From IMG/VR virus record IMGVR_UViG_3300037185_000229, positions 1 to 23,383 of that record: 23,383 nucleotides of DNA. One strand, given 5' to 3'. Position 1 is the first letter of the stretch. Each line of letters opens with the position of its first letter. The stretch comes from a virus. The position numbers and the translations under genes were made by a program. Positions 2,873-13,690 of the stretch are shown piece after piece. The notes beneath the pieces are model-generated. The model saw only the letters and a program-made list of their open reading frames with translations, was not told where the DNA came from and made no database searches.

Positions 2873-5755
2873 TCAGCTCCGCTGGCGCTTGTCGTAGACC
2901 TGGTGCGCGATGCCGGTCATGTCGCCGGCGATGGCCGCAAGGTAGGCGGATTTGTCGAGGTAGATATGCACGTTGGGCGGGGCGGAGCGGCCGGCGCTGA
3001 GGCCAGAGGAGGCGCCGGGCGCGCTGGCCGGGCGCAGGGCGGCCGAATGCATGGCGGCGACGGCCGCTGAGCCTCCCATATTGCGCACGGCGGGTGCGCT
3101 AAAAACATATTCTTGTCCATGGACAATGCCCGCGGGCTGGCCCTCACTCCCTCCAGTATAACCGCCGGATTCGAAGCTCGAGGCGAGCGCCAAGACCGCC
3201 GCGGCCGAAACAGCAAAAGCGACTGTCCCCCAAATTGGGCCAAGTTGGGCAATCGATTTCATGCCGGCTTCGGCTCCCTTTTCCACCACCGCCTCCTTCG
3301 TATCTTTTTTCTCATCGGCCCGGATTAATTTCCCGAGGGCATAATTGATAGCCATCTGCACGCCGAGCTGGACCAGCGCGCCGACGACGGATTCCTCGAT
3401 CGCCAGGCCGATGTTGGCGAACGCCTGGCGCCAATCGCCGGTGCGCGTGATCGCAGTCGTGATTTGCGACGAAACGGCCTGCATGCCGCCGCCGATAATG
3501 CTGCTGAGACTGTGGCCGATCTGCTGCGCCGTCGTGCCCCCCTCGTTGCGGAGCTGCGTGAGTGATTCGCGCATCTGCGCGAACGGATCGTTGGGGCTCG
3601 GCCCCATGCGGCCGGCCTCGCCCTGCATAGAGCCGAGTTGCTGGCCCTTGGCGGCGGCGCTTGCCTCGAAGGTGCTAGCCGCTCCCGGATGGCCGGCGGC
3701 GTGGGCGGCCTGCGCGGCAAGTTGGTCGGCCGCGATCGCGGCCTGCAGCGTGGCGATTTCCTGGGCGATGGCGGCCTTGCGCTCGGTCCATTTCTCGGCA
3801 TCGGTGCGGGTGTAGTCGGCTTCGAGGTTCGCGATGTTTTCGCGGATCGCCGTCATCTGGTTTTCGAGCGCGGTGCGCTGGGCGGCCGTTTGTTCGTGAG
3901 CCTTTCTCTGCGCTTCCTGCTGCTCCCACACCATGTGCTCGGCATCAATGCGTTGCTTGGCGAGATTCAGGTCGATGCCGTCATACGTGCCCATGGCCTG
4001 TTTGACCTTGGCCTGTTCTTTCAGCTGATTGGCCAGGTCGGAATTGCCGGCAGCAGCCGCGCGGGCGGCCTGCGTCTCAAGCTCGAAGGCCTCCCGATGG
4101 ATCTGCTCCTGTTCGGCGTGTTTGGCCGCGGCGGCGATCTTCTGCGTGACCTCATGCTCGTCTTTCTTCAGTTCGAGGATCTGGTTTTCGAGCTGGAGAG
4201 TGTGAGCGGCTATCTCGTCGTCGCTGAGGCCGCCCGGCAAGGGCTTGGCAAGCTCGGCCTGTTTGGCCGCGAGCTCAGCCCGCAGATGCTTCAGTTCGGC
4301 ATCGGGATCGCCGGCCGCCACGAGGAGCTGCTCGTGTTTTTTTTGCATCTCCGGGAGTTGCCCGACCAGCGGCGACAGAGTGTCCTTGAGCTTGGCGAGC
4401 TGGGCGTCGCTGACGATCTTCGCGGCCTTCGCGGGGTCGCCGAGATCCCGCATGAGCAGCTTCTGCTCGCCGATGATTTCCTTGACGTCCTGCAAGCGCT
4501 TGGCGTCGGCATCGGAAAAGGCTTTTGGCCGGAACGAAACGGACATGCCCACGCCATAGGTCGTCGTCAGTCCCGCGGCGGCTTTGGCTTCGGCCTCGGC
4601 GGCGGTTTTTCGCTTTTCGAGGACGCTTTGTTCGAGCAGGAGCTTGGTCATCTCCGCCTGCGTGGCGGCGCGGGCGGCGGCGATCTCTTCCGGACTGCCC
4701 GATTTGCCGGCACGATCACGGGCGCCTTTCATGGCATCGCCGACGACATGCAGGTCGCGCAACGTCGCCTGCACGTTGGCATCGGCCATCGCGTTGAGGA
4801 TGCCGGCGACGATGCCGCCGGCGATCACGGCCGCGAGCGCGGGCAGGAGCATCGAGGACATCGCGCCAGTGATCGGCGCAATGAATTTGCCCGCGAACGC
4901 CTGGCCGGCCGGATTGCCGGTGCGCGTAGCCCAATCCAGCACGGCGTTGTCGAGCTTGGGGATGATGCCTGCAGCCAGACCCGCGCCGAGGAGACTTGGC
5001 GCCATGCCGGCCAGGCCCGCGCCGAGGCTGCCGGCGCCGCCGATGCCGCCCATGACGCTCGCGACGCTCTGCAGGGTGGGCAGCAGCTGTGTGGCCGCGG
5101 CCTGCCACATGGTGCGGATCTGCGCGGTGACACCGTTCCACTGCTTTTCGAGGTTCTCCGCCGCGCGGGCGTTCTGGTCGACGCGCGTGGCAAGGTCGCC
5201 GGTCTGCTGCTTGGCAAGCTCAAGCGCCTCGGGATCGCCCAGGAGCTGCAGCATCGAGCCGCCGCCGCGGCCGAAGAGCTGGCGCGCCACGGCGACTTTG
5301 TCGGCCTGGTTGCTCAGGTTGGCGAAGCCTTTGGAGAGCACTTCGAGTTGCTGCGCATAAGTGAGCGGCTTCAGTTCCGCGATGGAAGTGCCGATGCGCT
5401 TGAAGGCGCCGTCGGTCTTGCCGCCCATGTCGTTGAGCCCACCGAGCGAGCGCTGCAGCATGTTGGCCGACATGCCGATCATCTCGGCGCCGAGGTGCGC
5501 GTTGCGGAACGCCTGATCAAGTACCACGAGCTCGCGCACGCTTTCGCCGGTGCGCATCGAGAGATGCTCGAACTCAGCCGCCTCGCCAATCGCGCTGGAC
5601 ACGCCCTGATAGGCCGTCTGAACCGAGAGGGCGGCGACGGCCACGCGGCCGAGCTCGCCCACCATGTCGCCCAGGGCGCCGTTGACCTTGCCGACGGAGG
5701 CGGCGGCGGTCTCGGTGCCGACGGCGGTGATGATGAGCTCTAGGAAAGAGGGCAT
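2873..5755 (-). CDS. Tail tape measure protein
   Basis: At 960 residues this is the longest gene in the window and sits directly after the tail assembly chaperone pair, the canonical place for a tape measure. Hydrophobic segments lie at about residues 215-320. A long alanine-, glutamate- and glutamine-rich helical/coiled-coil region spans about 340-720. The C-terminal end carries GGYTGG and a GIVHGQEYVFSAPAV stretch typical of siphophage tape measures. With the usual rule of about 0.15 nm per residue, the tail would be about 140 nm. No lytic transglycosylase or peptidase motif is evident. The start is an ATG behind a period-7 repeat without a Shine-Dalgarno motif. Confidence 0.92.
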   Translation of the reverse strand: MPSFLELIITAVGTETAAASVGKVNGALGDMVGELGRVAVAALSVQTAYQGVSSAIGEAAEFEHLSMRTGESVRELVVLDQAFRNAHLGAEMIGMSANMLQRSLGGLNDMGGKTDGAFKRIGTSIAELKPLTYAQQLEVLSKGFANLSNQADKVAVARQLFGRGGGSMLQLLGDPEALELAKQQTGDLATRVDQNARAAENLEKQWNGVTAQIRTMWQAAATQLLPTLQSVASVMGGIGGAGSLGAGLAGMAPSLLGAGLAAGIIPKLDNAVLDWATRTGNPAGQAFAGKFIAPITGAMSSMLLPALAAVIAGGIVAGILNAMADANVQATLRDLHVVGDAMKGARDRAGKSGSPEEIAAARAATQAEMTKLLLEQSVLEKRKTAAEAEAKAAAGLTTTYGVGMSVSFRPKAFSDADAKRLQDVKEIIGEQKLLMRDLGDPAKAAKIVSDAQLAKLKDTLSPLVGQLPEMQKKHEQLLVAAGDPDAELKHLRAELAAKQAELAKPLPGGLSDDEIAAHTLQLENQILELKKDEHEVTQKIAAAAKHAEQEQIHREAFELETQAARAAAAGNSDLANQLKEQAKVKQAMGTYDGIDLNLAKQRIDAEHMVWEQQEAQRKAHEQTAAQRTALENQMTAIRENIANLEADYTRTDAEKWTERKAAIAQEIATLQAAIAADQLAAQAAHAAGHPGAASTFEASAAAKGQQLGSMQGEAGRMGPSPNDPFAQMRESLTQLRNEGGTTAQQIGHSLSSIIGGGMQAVSSQITTAITRTGDWRQAFANIGLAIEESVVGALVQLGVQMAINYALGKLIRADEKKDTKEAVVEKGAEAGMKSIAQLGPIWGTVAFAVSAAAVLALASSFESGGYTGGSEGQPAGIVHGQEYVFSAPAVRNMGGSAAVAAMHSAALRPASAPGASSGLSAGRSAPPNVHIYLDKSAYLAAIAGDMTGIAHQVYDKRQRS

Positions 5756-5780
5756 GATGCGTGATTCGTGATGCGTGATT
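5756..5780 (-). repeat. Leader tandem repeat before the tape measure gene
   Basis: On the minus strand the bases before the ATG read as three units of ATCACGC/ATCACGA plus a partial unit, an almost perfect 7-nt period. There is no Shine-Dalgarno motif. Confidence 0.65.
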
Positions 5781-5795
5781 ATCGGGAGATTTCAG

Positions 5796-5829
5796 CGTCT
5801 CGCGTTCTTCCTACGTCTCGCGTTCTTCC
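5796..5829. repeat. 16-bp direct repeat at the end of the chaperone extension
   Basis: CGTCTCGCGTTCTTCC occurs twice (5796-5811 and 5814-5829), separated by TA. The minus-strand TAG stop of the chaperone extension straddles the junction at 5811-5813. It looks like a recent local duplication. Confidence 0.8.
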
Positions 5830-6113
5830 GCCATCTGCTTCACCAGCTGCTCGGCGAGTTCGCTATAGCCGCTGGACTCCCCCTTGGCGGCGGCGTAGGC
5901 GAGGTTGAAGGCTTGCATGAGATCGAGGCGGCGTTGGGCGCGCACGCGCTCGACTTCGGCAAGCAGAGCGCGCAGGCGCGCGGGTGTCAGCCGACAGCAG
6001 CGAGCATAGTCGCCGGCGCAGAGGCCGCGGGCGGCGGCGCGCTCGGCGAGGCGTCGCCAGCCGCGCTCGCGGTCGAGGGCGTAGGCGCAGAGCTCGTCGA
6101 AGGTAGCAAGCTT
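5811..6113 (-). CDS. Tail assembly chaperone extension (gpT-like, frame -1)
   Basis: This frame gives about 100 codons of protein-like sequence, from KLATFDELCAYALDRERG to VKQMAEERET and TAG. It sits between the upstream chaperone gene and the tape measure. The frame is open back to 6218 but has no ATG, GTG, TTG or CTG codon before roughly the middle of the extension. It is in the -1 frame relative to the upstream ORF, as in lambda G/GT and most siphophages, where a minority of ribosomes shift and make a fused chaperone. GC-rich third positions switch from the upstream frame to this one near 6113. The helical, charged character suits a tape-measure-binding domain. The function is inferred from architecture. 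Confidence 0.65.
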   Translation of the reverse strand, partial: KLATFDELCAYALDRERGWRRLAERAAARGLCAGDYARCCRLTPARLRALLAEVERVRAQRRLDLMQAFNLAYAAAKGESSGYSELAEQLVKQMAEERET

Positions 6114-6406
6114 AACACTTGGCCCATCTTGAAGAGCAGCGGTCCCACTTTCAGAGCGGCGATGGGATCGGCCTGCGCGATCTTCATCGCCATCTGAAAA
6201 TTTCCGCGGATGAACTCCTTAGCGAGCTCAAGGAAGCAATCTTGGTCGAGCGAGTTGATCCACTCGATATTGCGGCGCGCGCAGAGGGCCACGAGTTCCG
6301 GGGTGCGACCCTCGACGAGATGATCAGTGAACGTATAGCGCTCGGTGATCGAGAGCGGGGCGAAGTCGAGGGACTCGACCTGGCCGTTGGCGTATTTGAT
6401 TTTCAT
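5987..6406 (-). CDS. Tail assembly chaperone (gpG-like)
   Basis: This 139-aa protein precedes the tape measure. Its first 95 or so residues look like an ordinary folded domain, including MKIKYANGQVESLDFAPLS and a helical DCFLELAKEFIRG region. The remaining tail is Ser/Ala/Pro-rich and is the out-of-frame reading of the extension gene. The ATG abuts the TAA of the upstream lipoprotein gene with no gap. By analogy with lambda gpG, it would coat the tape measure during tail assembly and also be made as a longer -1 frameshift product. A candidate heptamer AAATTTT lies in frame at 6197-6203. Confidence 0.72.
   Translation of the reverse strand: MKIKYANGQVESLDFAPLSITERYTFTDHLVEGRTPELVALCARRNIEWINSLDQDCFLELAKEFIRGNFQMAMKIAQADPIAALKVGPLLFKMGQVLSLLPSTSSAPTPSTASAAGDASPSAPPPAASAPATMLAAVG
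6197..6203 (-). promoter_or_regulatory. Candidate -1 slippery heptamer A-AAT-TTT
   Basis: Within the gpG-like frame the codons GGA AAT TTT create A AAT TTT, which fits the X XXY YYZ rule for -1 slippage. It is the only canonical heptamer I found in the stretch where the two frames overlap (6218-5987). It lies about 85 nt upstream of the point where codon character changes frame, so the true site could be a non-canonical one nearer 6113. Confidence 0.35.
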
Positions 6407-6958
6407 TTAGTCGAATTCTGAGAGCTGTGTTGCTGCTTTTTCGGCGTCGGTGAGCGTCACAAACTGTCCCGTCTGCGGCTCGAAGAATTCCAAGCCGCGC
6501 TGCGTGACGGCTTGCACGATCGCATGGCCGACCTTGCCGCCGGCCGGCGTGTACCAGCGTTTGCCCACGGCAATGCCGTTGGCCGCCAGACCTGTGTTCC
6601 AATTCTGGGCGAAGTAATGCAACTGCGCGCCGCTCGCGAAGCGCGAGGCAAAGAACGTGCAGCATGCATTCGGCTCCCACTTCACCACGCCATAGGCGCC
6701 GGCGGCGATCTCCGCGCGGAACTGCGCGTAATACCACGGCAACCAGTCGCGATTGACCTCGGCGTACTGCGTCTTGCCGATGTAGGCCCAGCCGCAAGCC
6801 GTGCGCACCTGCTCAGCCGAGTAAACTTTGCCGGTGAAGATCGCCGGCTCGCCGCTCTGACGCGAGCAGCCGGTGACCAGGGCGAGCGGCGATAGTGCCG
6901 CCAGCGCTACGGCGAATAGTGCGACCCCTGACCAGAAAATGGCACGCCGCATTTTCAC
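6407..6958 (-). CDS. Lipoprotein with papain-like Cys/His/Glu pattern
   Basis: This 183-aa protein starts with a signal peptide: MKMRR, a hydrophobic run to residue 30, and a lipobox VTGC with Cys31 as the predicted lipidation site. The mature part has a WEPNACCTFF motif (Cys99/Cys100), then KVGHAIVQAV (His145) and EFFEPQTGQ (Glu160). That spacing recalls papain-fold cysteine peptidases and the MOA-lectin-type peptidase domain, where a Cys, a His followed by a strand, and an E-P-Q-T-G segment occur in this order. It starts with GTG overlapping the upstream stop (GTGA). A lipoprotein inside a tail operon could be a superinfection-exclusion or moron product. The enzymatic role is a hypothesis. 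Confidence 0.6.
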   Translation of the reverse strand: MKMRRAIFWSGVALFAVALAALSPLALVTGCSRQSGEPAIFTGKVYSAEQVRTACGWAYIGKTQYAEVNRDWLPWYYAQFRAEIAAGAYGVVKWEPNACCTFFASRFASGAQLHYFAQNWNTGLAANGIAVGKRWYTPAGGKVGHAIVQAVTQRGLEFFEPQTGQFVTLTDAEKAATQLSEFD

Positions 6959-7200
6959 AGCGCCTCCAGCTCCTCGCGGGTATAGCCGAAGCGCGCGGCG
7001 GCGGTATCGTCGGGCACGGCGGTGAAGACCGGCGCGAGGTAGCCTTCATCGCCCGGCTTGAGTGCCCGGTCATAATTCTCCGGGTAGCTCTGGGTATCCT
7101 GGGTGCGGGTCAGCGAGCCTTTGAGGCCGGCGATAAATGCCGCATGCTCGGGCGTGCCGGCGAGGGCGTCGAGATCTTGGCGAGTGTTGATCGTTTGCAT
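6955..7200 (-). CDS. Small hypothetical protein (81 aa) downstream of the RT
   Basis: This acidic 81-residue protein (MQTINTRQDLDALAGTPEH at the N-terminus, GYTREELEAL at the C-terminus) follows the reverse transcriptase. I chose the ATG at 7200 because it follows a CACTTT-type repeat leader; the longer reading from 7278 would encode that repeat and overlap the reverse transcriptase. It is coupled to the lipoprotein by GTGA. I do not recognise the family. It contains no Cys and no clear membrane segment. A tail-accessory role is suggested only by position. Confidence 0.6.
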   Translation of the reverse strand: MQTINTRQDLDALAGTPEHAAFIAGLKGSLTRTQDTQSYPENYDRALKPGDEGYLAPVFTAVPDDTAAARFGYTREELEAL

Positions 7201-7225
7201 GGTAAAGTGAAAGTGAGGATGAAAG
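7201..7225 (-). repeat. Leader repeat before the 81-aa gene
   Basis: On the minus strand, CTTTCA-type units of about 6 nt (CTTTCA, TCCTCA, CTTTCA, CTTTACC) precede the ATG. There is no Shine-Dalgarno motif. Confidence 0.5.
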
Positions 7226-7241
7226 GTCCGGCTTCGCGGGG

Positions 7242-8240
7242 CTACGCCGGAGCAAGGGAAACAAGTCCGAGGCTGCACTGCAGGTTGCGGCTATCGGCCC
7301 AGCCGGCGTGGCCGAGCCAAGCGGAGAGAAAGCGGGCGCGGCCGACAGGATCGTCCTGGCGCGTGAAGTGCCGCAGTTTCCGGCGCGCCCGGCGGACGCT
7401 CGCTGGCCGCAGTAGCTTGTGCCGCGCGAAAATCCGATAACCGAGAAAGTTGATGCCGCGCGTGTGATGCGCGACCATCCAGTGCGAGAGCCGCAGGCCC
7501 ATCGCCTCGCGGGCGAACGCCTCGGCGCGCTTCAGCAGCGCGGCGAGTTCGCGCCAGTCGGTGCCAAGCACGACGACGTCATCCATGTATCGGTGCCAGC
7601 GCAGCGCGCCCTGGCCCACCAGCCAGCGGTCGAAAATATGCCCGTAGACATTGGCCCAAAGTTGCGAGGTGAGGTTGCCGATGGGCAGCCCGGCGCCGGT
7701 GCGCGGGGTGAAGCGCTCGATCAGGGCGAGCGTGCGCGGGCAAGCGATCTTGCGCTCGATCTCGTGCCAGAGGATCGCGCGGTCGATGCTCGCGAAATAC
7801 TGCTTGAAATCGGTCTTCAGGAAATAGACCTGCTCCGGTCCGTGCTCGCGCACGAGCCGGCGCAGCTCGGCCTGCACGGCGACGACGCCATGGTGCGTGC
7901 CCAGGCCGACCCGGCAGGCGTAGCAGCGGCCCATCAGTACGCGGTCGAAGATCGGCCCGATGACACGATAGAGCGCGTGCTGCACGACGCGATCGGCGAA
8001 GGGCAGCGCCGAGATGCGCCGGGCCTTCGGCTCGTAAACCCAGAACTCGTGTGGCGCCGCCGGGCGATACGTGCCGGCGAGCAGGGCCGTGCGCAGATCC
8101 GCGAGGCGCACCTCGGATTCCTCCTTGTAGGCGAGATAGCCGAGCGTCTGCCGCTTGCCGAGCGCGGTGAGGCGATAGGCTTCGCGAAGATTGGCATCGG
8201 CCACGATGGCCGGGAAGAGGTTTTTATAACGATGACCCAC
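7242..8240 (-). CDS. Diversity-generating retroelement reverse transcriptase
   Basis: This 332-aa enzyme would copy the TR RNA into adenine-mutagenised cDNA for transfer to the VR. The start GHRYKNLFPAI and the GKRQTLGYL segment match the usual N-terminus of DGR reverse transcriptases. Motif A is KTDFKQYFASID (Asp144). LPIGNLTSQ at about 185-193 is the DGR/group II form of the QG motif. The catalytic box is YMDD at 218-221, followed by GINFLGYRIF. I set the start at a GTG at 8240 because the family N-terminus begins there and no in-frame ATG lies nearby; the frame stays open upstream through the TR. No Shine-Dalgarno motif precedes it. All visible catalytic residues are intact. Confidence 0.95.
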   Translation of the reverse strand: MGHRYKNLFPAIVADANLREAYRLTALGKRQTLGYLAYKEESEVRLADLRTALLAGTYRPAAPHEFWVYEPKARRISALPFADRVVQHALYRVIGPIFDRVLMGRCYACRVGLGTHHGVVAVQAELRRLVREHGPEQVYFLKTDFKQYFASIDRAILWHEIERKIACPRTLALIERFTPRTGAGLPIGNLTSQLWANVYGHIFDRWLVGQGALRWHRYMDDVVVLGTDWRELAALLKRAEAFAREAMGLRLSHWMVAHHTRGINFLGYRIFARHKLLRPASVRRARRKLRHFTRQDDPVGRARFLSAWLGHAGWADSRNLQCSLGLVSLAPA

Positions 8241-8400
8241 GAGGAGGAAGAAAATGGAGGGCTGACGGGTTTCGCGCAGGCTACTCGCCGCGCCCTCACC
8301 CAGGAGTGTATTTGCCGAAGCGAGAGAGCCCGGCTGACCACCTTGGTAGTCGTATCCGGAGCCCGTGAGCGTTCGGAGTTGGAAAAGACTTGTCGGATCG
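8241..8400 (-). ncRNA. DGR spacer region between TR and RT
   Basis: This 160-nt stretch between the TR and the reverse transcriptase start has no convincing gene of its own. In the Bordetella phage DGR, the RNA downstream of TR (the spacer) folds and provides the primer site for cDNA synthesis together with the 3' end of avd. I infer that this segment is the equivalent part of the DGR RNA. The reverse transcriptase frame is open across it. Confidence 0.5.
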
Positions 8401-8506
8401 TCACAGCGGCCGCGGGCGCCGATGTTGGAGTTGGAGTTCCACGGCGAGTTGTTCCAGTTCGAGCAACGCGAACCGCAGTTGGCGCCGTTGTCCCAATTGC
8501 CACCGC
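8401..8506 (-). repeat. DGR template repeat (TR)
   Basis: These 106 bp align without gaps to the VR at 8959-9064. They differ at 14 positions, and every one is an A in the TR sense strand. There are 21 such A residues. The TR is rich in AAY codons (nine when read in the VR frame), the usual arrangement that lets A-mutagenesis give 15 amino acids per codon without stops. The 5' end of the TR shares its first base with the TAG stop of avd. Confidence 0.97.
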
Positions 8507-8943
8507 TATCCGCGCTCTCTCTTCGCGACCTGCGCGCGCTTGACCCAAGCCCCGAGCATCGCGCCAACCTCGGCGAGGAGAATCGCCGCGGTCCGGTGTT
8601 GTTGCTGCGAGATAAACTTGCGACAAGGCGCGGCGCAGAACCGCAAAACGAAACGGAGGTGGGCGAGTCCGGCGTCAGCGGCATAGAGCCGCGAGACCTG
8701 GCCGGATTTGCCCGCCTCGATAAAAAGCTGCACCTGCCCGAGGATCGCGCGCGTGGCGTGGTCGCGCAGCACGTAGTCCGCCCGCGGCACTCCGCGGAGC
8801 AGCGGATAGACGTAGTCGACGAAGCGCTCGTATTTTTCGACGATGGCGAGCTGCTCCATGCAGGCATGCTGCATGGAGCTAGCAGGGTCGGGGTTGATAC
8901 GAGGTGTGTCATCGTGCGCCGGCTGCGCTTCCGCGCAGCTCAT
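8506..8943 (-). CDS. avd: DGR accessory variability determinant Avd
   Basis: The core of this protein (from MEQLAIVEKYERFVDYVYPL to about residue 140) matches the Avd four-helix-bundle family, with an AILGQVQLFIEAGK helix and a C-terminal LLAEVGAMLGAWVKRA helix. Avd forms a basic pentamer that binds the reverse transcriptase and RNA and is required for retrohoming. The ATG at 8943 overlaps the target gene's stop as ATGA; ATGs at 8874 and 8859 would give the more usual N-terminus. If the first start is used, the retrohoming hairpin is part of its coding sequence and adds about 28 residues. The stop TAG overlaps the TR by one base. Confidence 0.88.
   Translation of the reverse strand: MSCAEAQPAHDDTPRINPDPASSMQHACMEQLAIVEKYERFVDYVYPLLRGVPRADYVLRDHATRAILGQVQLFIEAGKSGQVSRLYAADAGLAHLRFVLRFCAAPCRKFISQQQHRTAAILLAEVGAMLGAWVKRAQVAKRERG
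8922..8939 (-). promoter_or_regulatory. DGR hairpin/cruciform downstream of the VR
   Basis: A perfect 7-bp inverted repeat GCTGCGC/GCGCAGC encloses a 4-nt loop, GGAA on the minus strand. It lies 19 nt beyond the VR and directly after the target gene's stop codon. DGRs of the Bordetella type need a hairpin of 7-10 bp with a GRNA tetraloop at this place for efficient target recognition; stem length, loop and position all fit. Confidence 0.85.
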
Positions 8944-9896
8944 ACAAGTTGCAGGTGGTCACAGCGGCCGCGGGCGCCGAAGACGGAGTAGGAGCTCCAC
9001 GGCGAGACGCTCCAGTACGAGCAACGCGAACCGCAGTCGGCGCCGGAGTCCCAAACGCCACCGCCGAGAGGAGCATGCAGGGCCTGATGATAGACCTGGC
9101 CGCGCGTCTGCGGAGTGGCCTGCCAGGCGTAGGCGGTGGTCGTTGGATCGGAGACTTCTCCGGCGAGCCATTCCCACATATTCCCCGCGGCCTGGAACAT
9201 GAAGCGCGAGGTCCTCGGAGCATCGAGGCCGGTCGTCACTGGATCGTAGCCGAGGTCCGTGCCTTCCGTGACGCCATAGGCGGCGAGCGATCGCTGCGCC
9301 GGCGTGAGCAGCGAGAGTCCATGCACGCCCAGGAGCTCCTCGGCGATGAAGCGCGAGAAGTCCGGGTAAGCGGCCGAGCCATCGCCGCCGCGCGAGGCGG
9401 GGATGATCGGCAGCGAGGCGCCGTCGGCGATCTGCGCGCCATAGGCCGAAGCGCCGAGCAAATGCGGCGTGGTATTGAGCGGATAGAGACACACCCAGCC
9501 GACGCCGGGACAGAACGCCTTGGCGCGCGGGTCGCTGCAGGCCGGGCGAAACTTGATGTCCCAGATCGACGGGACGAAGATCTGCGGCGTGGAGTCGCCG
9601 CCGGCCTGCGCCGCGGCGGGGCCGCCGGGGGCGTAGTGAAAGCCGCCGACCTGGAGGCTGTTTGCGGTCGTGTATCCGGCCGGAGCCGAAAAGTTGGCCG
9701 AGGCGATGATGCGGCCGTCAAAGGTCGCATACACCGCGTAATCGGTGCCGACCACGAGCGCGGGCATCTCGACGGCTTTGTCGGCCGTGAACTTGACCAG
9801 AAGATTACCCACCGCCGCGCGCGTGCCGGAGAGGATCTTCAAGACCCCGCCCGATAGCGTCAGGCAGGGGATCGATGAATTTAGCTTGGAAATCAT
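8940..9896 (-). CDS. DGR target protein: Mtd-like receptor-binding protein with C-type-lectin fold
   Basis: This 318-aa protein resembles major tropism determinant proteins. An N-terminal part (about 1-105) contains VGGFHYAPGG. It is followed by SIWDIKFRPACSDPRAKAF, the LPIIPASRGGDG segment, LDAPRTSRFMFQAAGNMWEW and a C-terminal GARGRCD typical of DGR lectin-like or formylglycine-enzyme-like folds. The VR covers residues 278-313. Ten residues differ from the TR-encoded version: 281, 284, 287, 294, 296, 297, 301, 303, 305 and 306. By analogy with BPP-1 Mtd it would sit at the tail tip and bind a host receptor. The start overlaps the upstream gene's stop as ATGA, and the stop overlaps avd in the same way. 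The ligand is unknown. Confidence 0.93.
   Translation of the reverse strand: MISKLNSSIPCLTLSGGVLKILSGTRAAVGNLLVKFTADKAVEMPALVVGTDYAVYATFDGRIIASANFSAPAGYTTANSLQVGGFHYAPGGPAAAQAGGDSTPQIFVPSIWDIKFRPACSDPRAKAFCPGVGWVCLYPLNTTPHLLGASAYGAQIADGASLPIIPASRGGDGSAAYPDFSRFIAEELLGVHGLSLLTPAQRSLAAYGVTEGTDLGYDPVTTGLDAPRTSRFMFQAAGNMWEWLAGEVSDPTTTAYAWQATPQTRGQVYHQALHAPLGGGVWDSGADCGSRCSYWSVSPWSSYSVFGARGRCDHLQLV
8959..9064 (-). repeat. DGR variable repeat (VR) with GC-rich IMH end
   Basis: This is the 3'-terminal coding segment of the target gene, the partner of the TR. Relative to the TR sense strand the changes are 7 A-to-T, 6 A-to-G and 1 A-to-C, with none at C, G or T. The end nearest the stop contains an unbroken 16-nt G/C stretch (8964-8979) followed by TGTGAC. 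This is the expected initiation-of-mutagenic-homing (IMH) element. Identity with the TR region stops directly after it. Confidence 0.97.
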
Positions 9897-10186
9897 GGTG
9901 CGGTGACAGAACCGAGCAGGCCGAGCTGGAGCGCGGCTGCATCGGTGATTGGAGTGATGACGACATTTACCAGCCCGGTTTGGGGGTCGAGTACCCCAGG
10001 CGCCACGGCGGTCGCCGCCGTCGGATCAGCATGGCTCGGAGCCGCGGCCGTAGCCGCCGTCGGCGTAGTGTGGCCGGGCGCGGTGGCCGTGGCCGCGGTT
10101 GGCGTGGCATGACCAGGCGCGGTGGCCGTGGCCGCCGTTGGCGTGGTGTGACCAGGCGCGGTGGCCGTGTAATCCCATTGGCTCAT
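9893..10186 (-). CDS. Protein with tandem 13-residue repeats (97 aa)
   Basis: After MSQWDY come four copies of a 13-residue unit (consensus TATAPGHTTPTAA, residues 7-58) and part of a fifth. The C-terminal region is unique (DPQTGLVNVVITPITDAAA). The first three units are nearly identical and the fourth is diverged. There are no cysteines or catalytic motifs; the Thr/Ala/Pro-rich repeats suggest an extended, surface-exposed stalk or linker. The gene overlaps the DGR target start as ATGA, so the two are probably translated together, and the product may anchor or space the target protein. I do not recognise a family. The start is an ATG after a repeat-containing leader. Confidence 0.7.
   Translation of the reverse strand: MSQWDYTATAPGHTTPTAATATAPGHATPTAATATAPGHTTPTAATAAAPSHADPTAATAVAPGVLDPQTGLVNVVITPITDAAALQLGLLGSVTAP
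9995..10168 (-). repeat. 39-bp in-frame tandem repeat array
   Basis: Four full 39-bp units and part of a fifth encode the 13-residue repeats. The unit length is a multiple of three, so gain or loss of units keeps the frame and the ATGA coupling to the DGR target gene. Confidence 0.9.
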
Positions 10187-10904: not shown

Positions 10905-11369
10905 TCAGAGCAGCCGGAGGCCGGCCAGAACGTAGAGCTCGTGCACGTGGCAGCCGGGCGGGCCGTCGTGGCGGCGCTGGTGGCCGGTCACGCGGAAATA
11001 GTCGCGCTCGGTCAGCACCGCCGGCGGCGTGGCCAGCACCGTCTTGCCGTTGATCGCCTCGATGGCGGCCCAGAGGGCGTCGAGGGCGTTGTGCGTCAAG
11101 TCGGTCGTGGGATTGTGCGTGATGCAGACGTTGAGGTCCTCGTCGCTCAATAGCGCGGCGTAATCGTTCTCGACCGATTTGCCGGTCGCGGTGGTCACGA
11201 TAACCCCGAAGCCAAGCGGCAGCAGACTGTTCTCGATTTGATATTCGAGGTCCGCGATCTTCTCGGTGAGCAGCTGCCTCGTGGTATCGAGCCCCGTGAA
11301 ATAGGCGTTGGCCGCGAGGAGATCGACGAGGCGCTGCTGCAGCGTGAGGATGGGATTGGCGGCGCTCAT
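10905..11369 (-). CDS. Tail terminator-like protein (Mu gp37-like)
   Basis: This 154-aa protein begins MSAANPILTLQQRLVDLLAA. Position between the tail completion protein and tail tube, size, and an LNVCITHNPTTDLTHNALDALWAAIEAI-type stretch (shown in part) fit tail terminator proteins that stop tube growth and join tail to head. The ATG overlaps the upstream stop by one base (TGATG), so it is probably read by re-initiating ribosomes. Longer readings in the same frame run antisense-like sequence and overlap the upstream gene. The assignment rests mainly on context. Confidence 0.58.
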   Translation of the reverse strand: MSAANPILTLQQRLVDLLAANAYFTGLDTTRQLLTEKIADLEYQIENSLLPLGFGVIVTTATGKSVENDYAALLSDEDLNVCITHNPTTDLTHNALDALWAAIEAINGKTVLATPPAVLTERDYFRVTGHQRRHDGPPGCHVHELYVLAGLRLL

Positions 11370-11980
11370 CAGGCAATGCCTCCTGGGCTGTGGCGGCGAA
11401 AGAAGGCTTGCGCGGTGCCTGCGAGGGCAGGGCCGAGGAGCGCGGGGGGCGGCAGGGCCAGCGGGTCCTTGGGCACGGTGACCTGCGAGAGGAGCCGATA
11501 GTAGAACGTAAGCGGGCCGCCCTTTTGGTCGCGGGCGACAAGGAACGCTCCGTTGCCGTCTTTGCGGCGGAAGACGAACAGGCCGGGGATGATACCCGAG
11601 CGTGGCTGCACGCCATACGCCGCGGCCACGAGCGGGATGGCGAGCGCTTTGCGGCCTTGAGTGGGCTTGATCGTGGCGCCGTAAACTTTGGCGGCCAGGG
11701 CGGGATCGGAGACGACGATCGTAGCAGCGTCCGGCGTGGTCTTCGATGGGTCGAAAGCGGTGCGCTTGCCGATGCGCGCCCAGAAGTGCTGGCGCGGCCA
11801 GCCCTGCTTGTTCGGGCTCTCGTGATCGAGCTGGAAAAACCATTTGCGCAGCTCACCCTCGGCGCGCGTGCCGAGGACCTTCATCAGGGCTTTGCGCTGC
11901 TCGGGAGATTTGAGCGCATCGTGCACGAGCGCCACGTCGCGGCTGGCGTCGTTGCGGGAGATGGTGACGGTGACGCTCAT
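11369..11980 (-). CDS. Tail completion protein (Mu gpG / HK97 gp10-like)
   Basis: This 203-aa protein starts MSVTVTISRNDASRDVALVH. It has a helical N-terminal half and a conserved-looking KVYGATIKPTQGRKALAIPL strand that resembles the GxTIxPKxxKALAIPL signature of HK97-gp10/Mu gpG-type virion morphogenesis proteins. These act at the head-tail joint. The chosen ATG overlaps the MuF-like gene's stop as ATGA; an ATG six codons upstream is also possible. It pairs with the MuF-like gene as gpF and gpG do in Mu. Confidence 0.68.
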   Translation of the reverse strand: MSVTVTISRNDASRDVALVHDALKSPEQRKALMKVLGTRAEGELRKWFFQLDHESPNKQGWPRQHFWARIGKRTAFDPSKTTPDAATIVVSDPALAAKVYGATIKPTQGRKALAIPLVAAAYGVQPRSGIIPGLFVFRRKDGNGAFLVARDQKGGPLTFYYRLLSQVTVPKDPLALPPPALLGPALAGTAQAFFRRHSPGGIA

Positions 11981-12934: not shown

Positions 12935-13690
12935 TCAGGCGGCGGGCGTGATGATGACTTCAGGATACGGTTTCCCGTGCCCGCACTTCTTGTTGATCTG
13001 ACATTGGCGCAGGATCGGCGTGAACCGGCAGCCGGCAAAAATGCCGCGCACTTCGGCGCTCTCGTTGAGAGTCACGATCCACTGGCCCTTGATCGCGAAG
13101 AGAACGTCGTGCAGGCGCTGAACCTGCGGGGCGGTCCAGGCGGCATAGGAATTGACCTTGCAGCCGATATAAGGCGGATCGCAGAAGAACAGGGTGTCTG
13201 GAGAATCGTAAAGCGCGACGCAGCGCTCCCAATCGAGGCGCTCGACGTTCACGCGCTCCAGCCGGGCATGCAGCGCGGCCGTCTGCCGAACGATGCGAGA
13301 CGAGGGAGTGGAAGCTCCGCCTCCGCTGCTGCGGACAACGCCATAGCTCTTGTTCTCGCCGCCGAATGAAAGGTTGTTGAGATAAAGGTAACTCGCGGCC
13401 CTTTGAATTTCCGTCCAGCCGGGCTGCGCCTTGCGCAAGAGAAATTCCTCGCGGGAGTTCGCGACCGCTGTCAACTGCCGCAAGAGCTCGTCGGGATGAT
13501 GCTGGATCTGGCGAAGGGCATTGACCAGGCAGCCGTCGGTATCGTTGACGACTTCCACTTCGCTGCGCGGCTTGGCCAGCAACACAGAGCATGTGCCGCA
13601 GAACGGCTCGACGTAGCAGCGATGCGACACCTGCGCGATATGCGGCAGGAGATGTTGCACCAGGCGCGATTTTGAGCCAGCGCGCTTCAT
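12935..13690 (-). CDS. DNA N6-adenine methyltransferase, D12 class (Dam-like)
   Basis: This 251-aa enzyme has the Dam-family layout. A basic N-terminal AGSKSRL segment is followed by the AdoMet-binding motif VEPFCGTCSVLL (about 27-38), VVNDTD (47-52) and the catalytic DPPY at 171-174 within FFCDPPYIGC. It should methylate adenine in DNA, perhaps to protect phage DNA from host restriction or to regulate phage genes. It is embedded between head genes and flanked by repeat-filled gaps on both sides, so it looks like an added gene. Two small cysteine-containing segments near the C-terminus (QCQINKKCGHG) could bind metal. Target sequence is not predictable from the sequence alone. Confidence 0.9.
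   Translation of the reverse strand: MKRAGSKSRLVQHLLPHIAQVSHRCYVEPFCGTCSVLLAKPRSEVEVVNDTDGCLVNALRQIQHHPDELLRQLTAVANSREEFLLRKAQPGWTEIQRAASYLYLNNLSFGGENKSYGVVRSSGGGASTPSSRIVRQTAALHARLERVNVERLDWERCVALYDSPDTLFFCDPPYIGCKVNSYAAWTAPQVQRLHDVLFAIKGQWIVTLNESAEVRGIFAGCRFTPILRQCQINKKCGHGKPYPEVIITPAA

Follow-up and report, generated by a model that had tools for sequence, protein, structure and literature searches.

The closest described system is the diversity-generating retroelement (DGR) of Bordetella phage BPP-1, in which the components follow in the order mtd-avd-TR-brt. Phage elements carry hairpins with GC stems of 7-10 bp and 4-nt GRNA loops at a distance of 4-34 bp (PMC3240598). A metagenome survey of 2021 catalogued more than 30,000 DGRs and found them to be broadly active, most strongly so in the virus-associated group (PMC8144416); the element described here is therefore a further example of a known DGR type. 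It is located in the window, i.e., the whole stretch of 23,383 nucleotides analyzed, which corresponds to positions 1-23,383 of the IMG/VR record IMGVR_UViG_3300037185_000229, a 23-kb fragment. All standard parts of a Bordetella-type DGR are present and intact: a Mtd homologue, the GRNA hairpin, Avd, the template repeat (TR), the RF03022 RNA, and the reverse transcriptase (RT). We estimate at about 0.97 the probability that this is a functional Bordetella-type DGR of a tailed phage or prophage with the closest packaging relatives in Opitutaceae genomes. The features of the locus are as follows.

9893-10186, minus strand: open reading frame of 97 aa with TAPGH repeats, upstream of the target gene and sharing an ATGA overlap with its start
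8940-9896, minus strand: target gene, a Mtd homologue of 318 aa without the Mtd_N domain
8959-9064, minus strand: variable repeat (VR), spanning target codons 278-313, a gapless match to TR
8964-8979, minus strand: IMH-like tract of 16 nt, all G or C, close to the 3' end of VR and identical in TR
8922-8939, minus strand: hairpin GCTGCGC-GGAA-GCGCAGC with a 7-bp GC stem and a GGAA loop (GRNA type)
8506-8943, minus strand: avd; its ATG at 8943 overlaps the target stop codon, and the real start may be downstream, near 8874 or 8859
8401-8506, minus strand: TR, with 21 adenines and nine AAY codons
8256-8380, minus strand: Phage_DGR RNA RF03022 in the spacer between TR and RT (Rfam cmscan)
7242-8240, minus strand: RT of 332 aa with a GTG start, a homologue of Brt
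6955-7200, minus strand: Bbp4-like gene of 81 aa (phrog_30757), directly after the RT gene, a homologue of BPP-1 Bbp4

The order target-hairpin-avd-TR-RT is the same as in BPP-1, as the original prediction had stated, and its claim that these five parts are intact is borne out by the independent identification of each. The prediction had also called the element complete; this holds for the retroelement, but the RNA gene and the mtd-partner gene downstream of RT had been missed. BPP-1 and the window share a homologous target, Avd, and RT (51-52% identical), the same RNA family, a GC tract, a GRNA hairpin, and a Bbp4-like gene after RT; moreover, of the ten AAC codons in the BPP-1 TR, nine have AAY codons at the same aligned positions in the window TR. 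The differences concern (i) the target, which has no Mtd_N domain, whereas the BPP-1 Mtd does; (ii) the hairpin, which in the window has the 7-bp stem and the GGAA loop and, by the same count, is separated from VR by 20 nt rather than 5 nt; (iii) the G/C tract, CGGCGCCCGCGGCCGC (16 nt) in the window and CGGGGCGCGCGGCG (14 nt) in BPP-1; (iv) the surroundings, since the window element, unlike that of BPP-1, is part of a tail cluster that includes tape-measure and BR0599 genes; and (v) the host, which for the window is probably a member of Opitutaceae.

The hairpin immediately follows the target stop codon. Its stem, loop, and distance from VR are within the published ranges, and thus it fits the phage DGR rule. 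In relatives the stem sequences differ, while the pairing is kept. Among 28 further loci scanned, 17 have a perfect stem of 6 bp or longer, and each of these 17 has a GRNA loop. The 5' part of avd contains a longer palindrome, GCTCCATGCAG-CATGC-CTGCATGGAGC, at positions 8853-8879. It was considered as a homing hairpin and rejected, as it is not conserved in a relative with 84% identity (L008).

Avd is identified by matches to the Pfam family bAvd (E 2e-27), to the BPP-1 Avd structure 4dwl in PDB (E 7e-32), and to NF033474 above its cut-off. The RF03022 match in the spacer is full-length (61.8 bits, E 1.4e-8 by Rfam cmscan) and exceeds the gathering score; this RNA was present in all ten loci searched. 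An open frame of 556 aa (8912-7242) was rejected as the RT gene: it spans TR and the RNA, and the homology to Brt begins at the GTG at 8240.

The substitution pattern between the repeats is strictly base-specific. TR and VR are both 106-mers that align without gaps and differ at 14 positions, every one of them an adenine in TR (seven A to T, six A to G, and one A to C). Thus, 14 of the 21 adenines and none of the 85 other bases are changed; the probability that 14 random positions would all hit adenines is 1.1e-12. The differences alter ten codons of the target, and the nine AAY codons of TR correspond to 15^9, or 3.8e10, protein variants. These figures agree throughout with those given originally. 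Other loci show the same tendency, with adenines accounting for most or all of their TR-to-VR differences. When the cassette DNA was searched against the whole record, only the cassette itself and the 27-base palindrome matched, and no second VR was found.

A natural experiment is provided by a sister contig, IMGVR_UViG_3300037107_000128 (L007/L014), which carries a near-identical cassette with a different VR. This contig and the window have the same TR, avd, and RT and do not differ in the 851 target bases outside VR, and the block 7220-9920 without VR contains a single difference in 2,595 bases. The two VRs differ at 12 positions, all 12 at TR adenines (Fisher p 2e-26 for VR adenines versus the remainder). 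The original prediction had proposed to look in related phages for VR variants with a constant TR, and had described the element as apparently active; the sister contig provides such a variant, and at the level of sequence it demonstrates recent activity of the DGR in nature. Scanning for additional VR variants by exact pattern returned the sister contig only, and a pattern-based RT scan of genome contigs returned two loci only. Other close RT-bearing pairs behave alike, e.g., L089 and L090 differ by 0.9% outside the last 123 bases and by 14.6% inside them.

The flanks of the sister contig contain diverged stretches, and one gene is replaced relative to the window; hence the two are different phages, and their genomes are mosaic. 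Between positions 4363 and 11774 the window and the sister contig (L014) form a sharp mosaic, with identical blocks alternating with diverged ones, and the ends of an identical block coincide with the cassette ends at 7219/7220 and 9920/9921. A transfer of just the cassette as one block was considered and rejected as non-specific, as the blocks 4570-6406 and 10930-11725 are identical too.

Three other explanations of the locus can be considered. One is that the element has decayed, with TR/VR differences of old date and an RT that has lost its function. Decay is indeed common in this family, where related mtd loci contain RT stubs or avd fragments without RT. However, both RT motifs are intact (YMDD at 218 and IGNLTSQ, of the IGxxxSQ type, at 187), and the dN/dS ratio of 0.12 against a relative indicates purifying selection on the RT. 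Moreover, the 12 changed adenine sites separate cassettes that are otherwise almost identical. Decay of the window element is therefore very unlikely. The differences in VR could also be ascribed to gene conversion or to ordinary positive selection on the receptor-binding tip rather than to mutagenic retrohoming. Receptor-binding tips are generally fast-evolving, but no non-adenine position of TR is changed in either comparison, and selection would ignore the base found in a distant template. Because the changes are confined to TR adenines, this explanation is refuted for practical purposes.

It is just as improbable that the RT belongs to another system, such as a group II intron, a retron, or a defence RT, and stands beside a repeat by chance. 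The RT profiles of those systems do match the window RT, but weakly and below the curated NCBIfam cut-offs, and Brt of BPP-1 yields identical weak matches to them. The match of the window RT to Brt (8ub7) has E 2e-92, whereas the best group II intron RT reaches just 3e-13, and Avd, RF03022, and the TR/VR pair are present at the same locus.

If the DGR operates as in BPP-1, from which the biochemical steps are taken by analogy, an RNA consisting of TR and the RF03022 spacer would be copied by the Avd-RT complex. Random bases would be placed opposite the TR adenines during copying, and the mutated cDNA would take the place of VR at the 3' end of the mtd-type gene, with the GC tract and the adjacent downstream hairpin directing it to the site. 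The C-type-lectin tip would then vary at up to ten residues, with TR remaining constant, and the varied tip would presumably bind the host receptor.

The target aligns with Mtd (1yu1) from Mtd residue 63 (phmmer E 7e-63), and also matches the Pfam domain mtd_2nd (PF21916, E 8e-20) and phrog_11262, which comprises that tail protein (E 5e-97). The Pfam domain Mtd_N (PF18454), found in BPP-1 Mtd, was not found in the window protein; for this reason it is best named a Mtd homologue rather than a full Mtd. Modeling of its lectin-like domain had been suggested originally. A template-free AlphaFold model based on 32 related sequences (pLDDT 88.6, pTM 0.88) adopts the Mtd fold, with TM scores of 0.94-0.95 and deviations of 1.6-1.7 A against five crystal variants of Mtd (1yu0-1yu4); the second domain of Mtd and its C-terminal lectin fold are thus both present in the target. 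Given the homology to Mtd and the position in the tail cluster, it would serve as the receptor-binding tail protein. The N-termini differ widely between relatives of the target. The upstream 97-aa frame has a weak match to phrog_10196, and we can only guess that it might serve to anchor the Mtd with its short N-terminus as a protein of its own. One of the Mtd matches, L023 (LR745708), is not a natural relative but a record of phage T7 whose fibre was engineered as a T7-Mtd chimaera.

The Bbp4-like gene downstream of RT is the least expected component. No Pfam family matched it, and its structural model (pLDDT 92.5, pTM 0.65) had no match below E 0.7 in PDB and BFVD. No relevant mention of bbp4 together with BPP-1 turned up in the literature searched, although the gene might still be described. 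A scan of IMG/VR with an alignment of the Bbp4-like family identified 145 relatives, and the analysis was limited to the 80 best loci. Among these best 80 of 145, 44 loci have at least 3.5 kb upstream; mtd is present in 43 of the 44, RT in 35 (in some cases as mere stubs), and no locus lacks both. In the reverse scan, anchored on Mtd, 57 loci of the best 80 of 359 have at least 2.6 kb downstream, and a Bbp4-like gene follows mtd in 53 of them. Again within the best 80 of 359, the two genes are separated by the retroelement in 40 of these 53 loci, and in the remaining 13, which have no RT, the Bbp4-like gene starts 19-346 nt past mtd. The two scans share some contigs, and their counts are not fully independent. 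As the Bbp4-like gene follows mtd in the absence of the retroelement as well, it goes with mtd and not with RT. The retroelement occupies the junction of a two-gene unit formed by mtd and the Bbp4-like gene.

Several loci are intermediate in content. RT stubs are observed in L039, L046, and L078, avd fragments in L134 and L153, and hairpins without RT in L052 and in Synechococcus phages S-CBS1 and S-CBS3. In both Synechococcus phages mtd is followed by a GRNA-type hairpin and a Bbp4-like gene, with no avd or full RT and at most a C-terminal RT remnant (weak, E about 1e-4). L018 and L019 belong to the same group of mtd loci, in which RT stubs, avd fragments, or just a hairpin are left. Such remnants look like stages of retroelement loss. 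In L107 and L108 an open reading frame that by eye resembles an HNH/NUMOD-type endonuclease replaces the retroelement between mtd and the Bbp4-like gene, and in three more distant loci (L009, L010, and L012) the place of the Bbp4-like gene is taken by a different small gene family, phrog_6034.

L004 and L006 encode a fusion of the Bbp4-like part with DUF4376. Since the DUF4376 phrogs include tail-fibre proteins, this fusion points to a role in fibre assembly for the Bbp4-like protein, which is probably a partner of Mtd in assembly; we propose that it acts as a chaperone or adaptor. More tentatively, and at slightly less than even odds, it would be a protein devoted to the folding or attachment of Mtd, with mtd and the bbp4-like gene as the unit and the retroelement as a removable insert at the junction that has been lost many times. 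If so, Mtd-type loci, including that of BPP-1, would encode an overlooked partner protein that tolerates or checks randomized lectin tips.

The source is a tailed phage or prophage with the closest packaging relatives in Opitutaceae genomes. The window terminase is up to 72% identical to that of prophages in these genomes, and further structural genes are common to the window and some of these prophages. A related element is also present in the source MAG of locus L011, which is named Opitutaceae. On these grounds the host is probably a member of Opitutaceae (Verrucomicrobiota). When RF03022 was searched in 200 genomes of the family of this MAG, only the MAG itself was positive; the element is therefore rare in the family. 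The structural gene cluster of the window also includes a gene for a D12-class adenine methyltransferase (12935-13690).

In summary, the locus adds a complete and naturally active Bordetella-type element from a phage apparently of Verrucomicrobiota (Opitutaceae), together with a pair of cassettes that differ only at adenine sites of VR and at one further base. The mtd-bbp4 pair is a part that specialists may not expect, and it suggests a partner protein of Mtd. As related phages carry the same tail gene with or without the diversifier, the cost and benefit of diversification may be compared between them.
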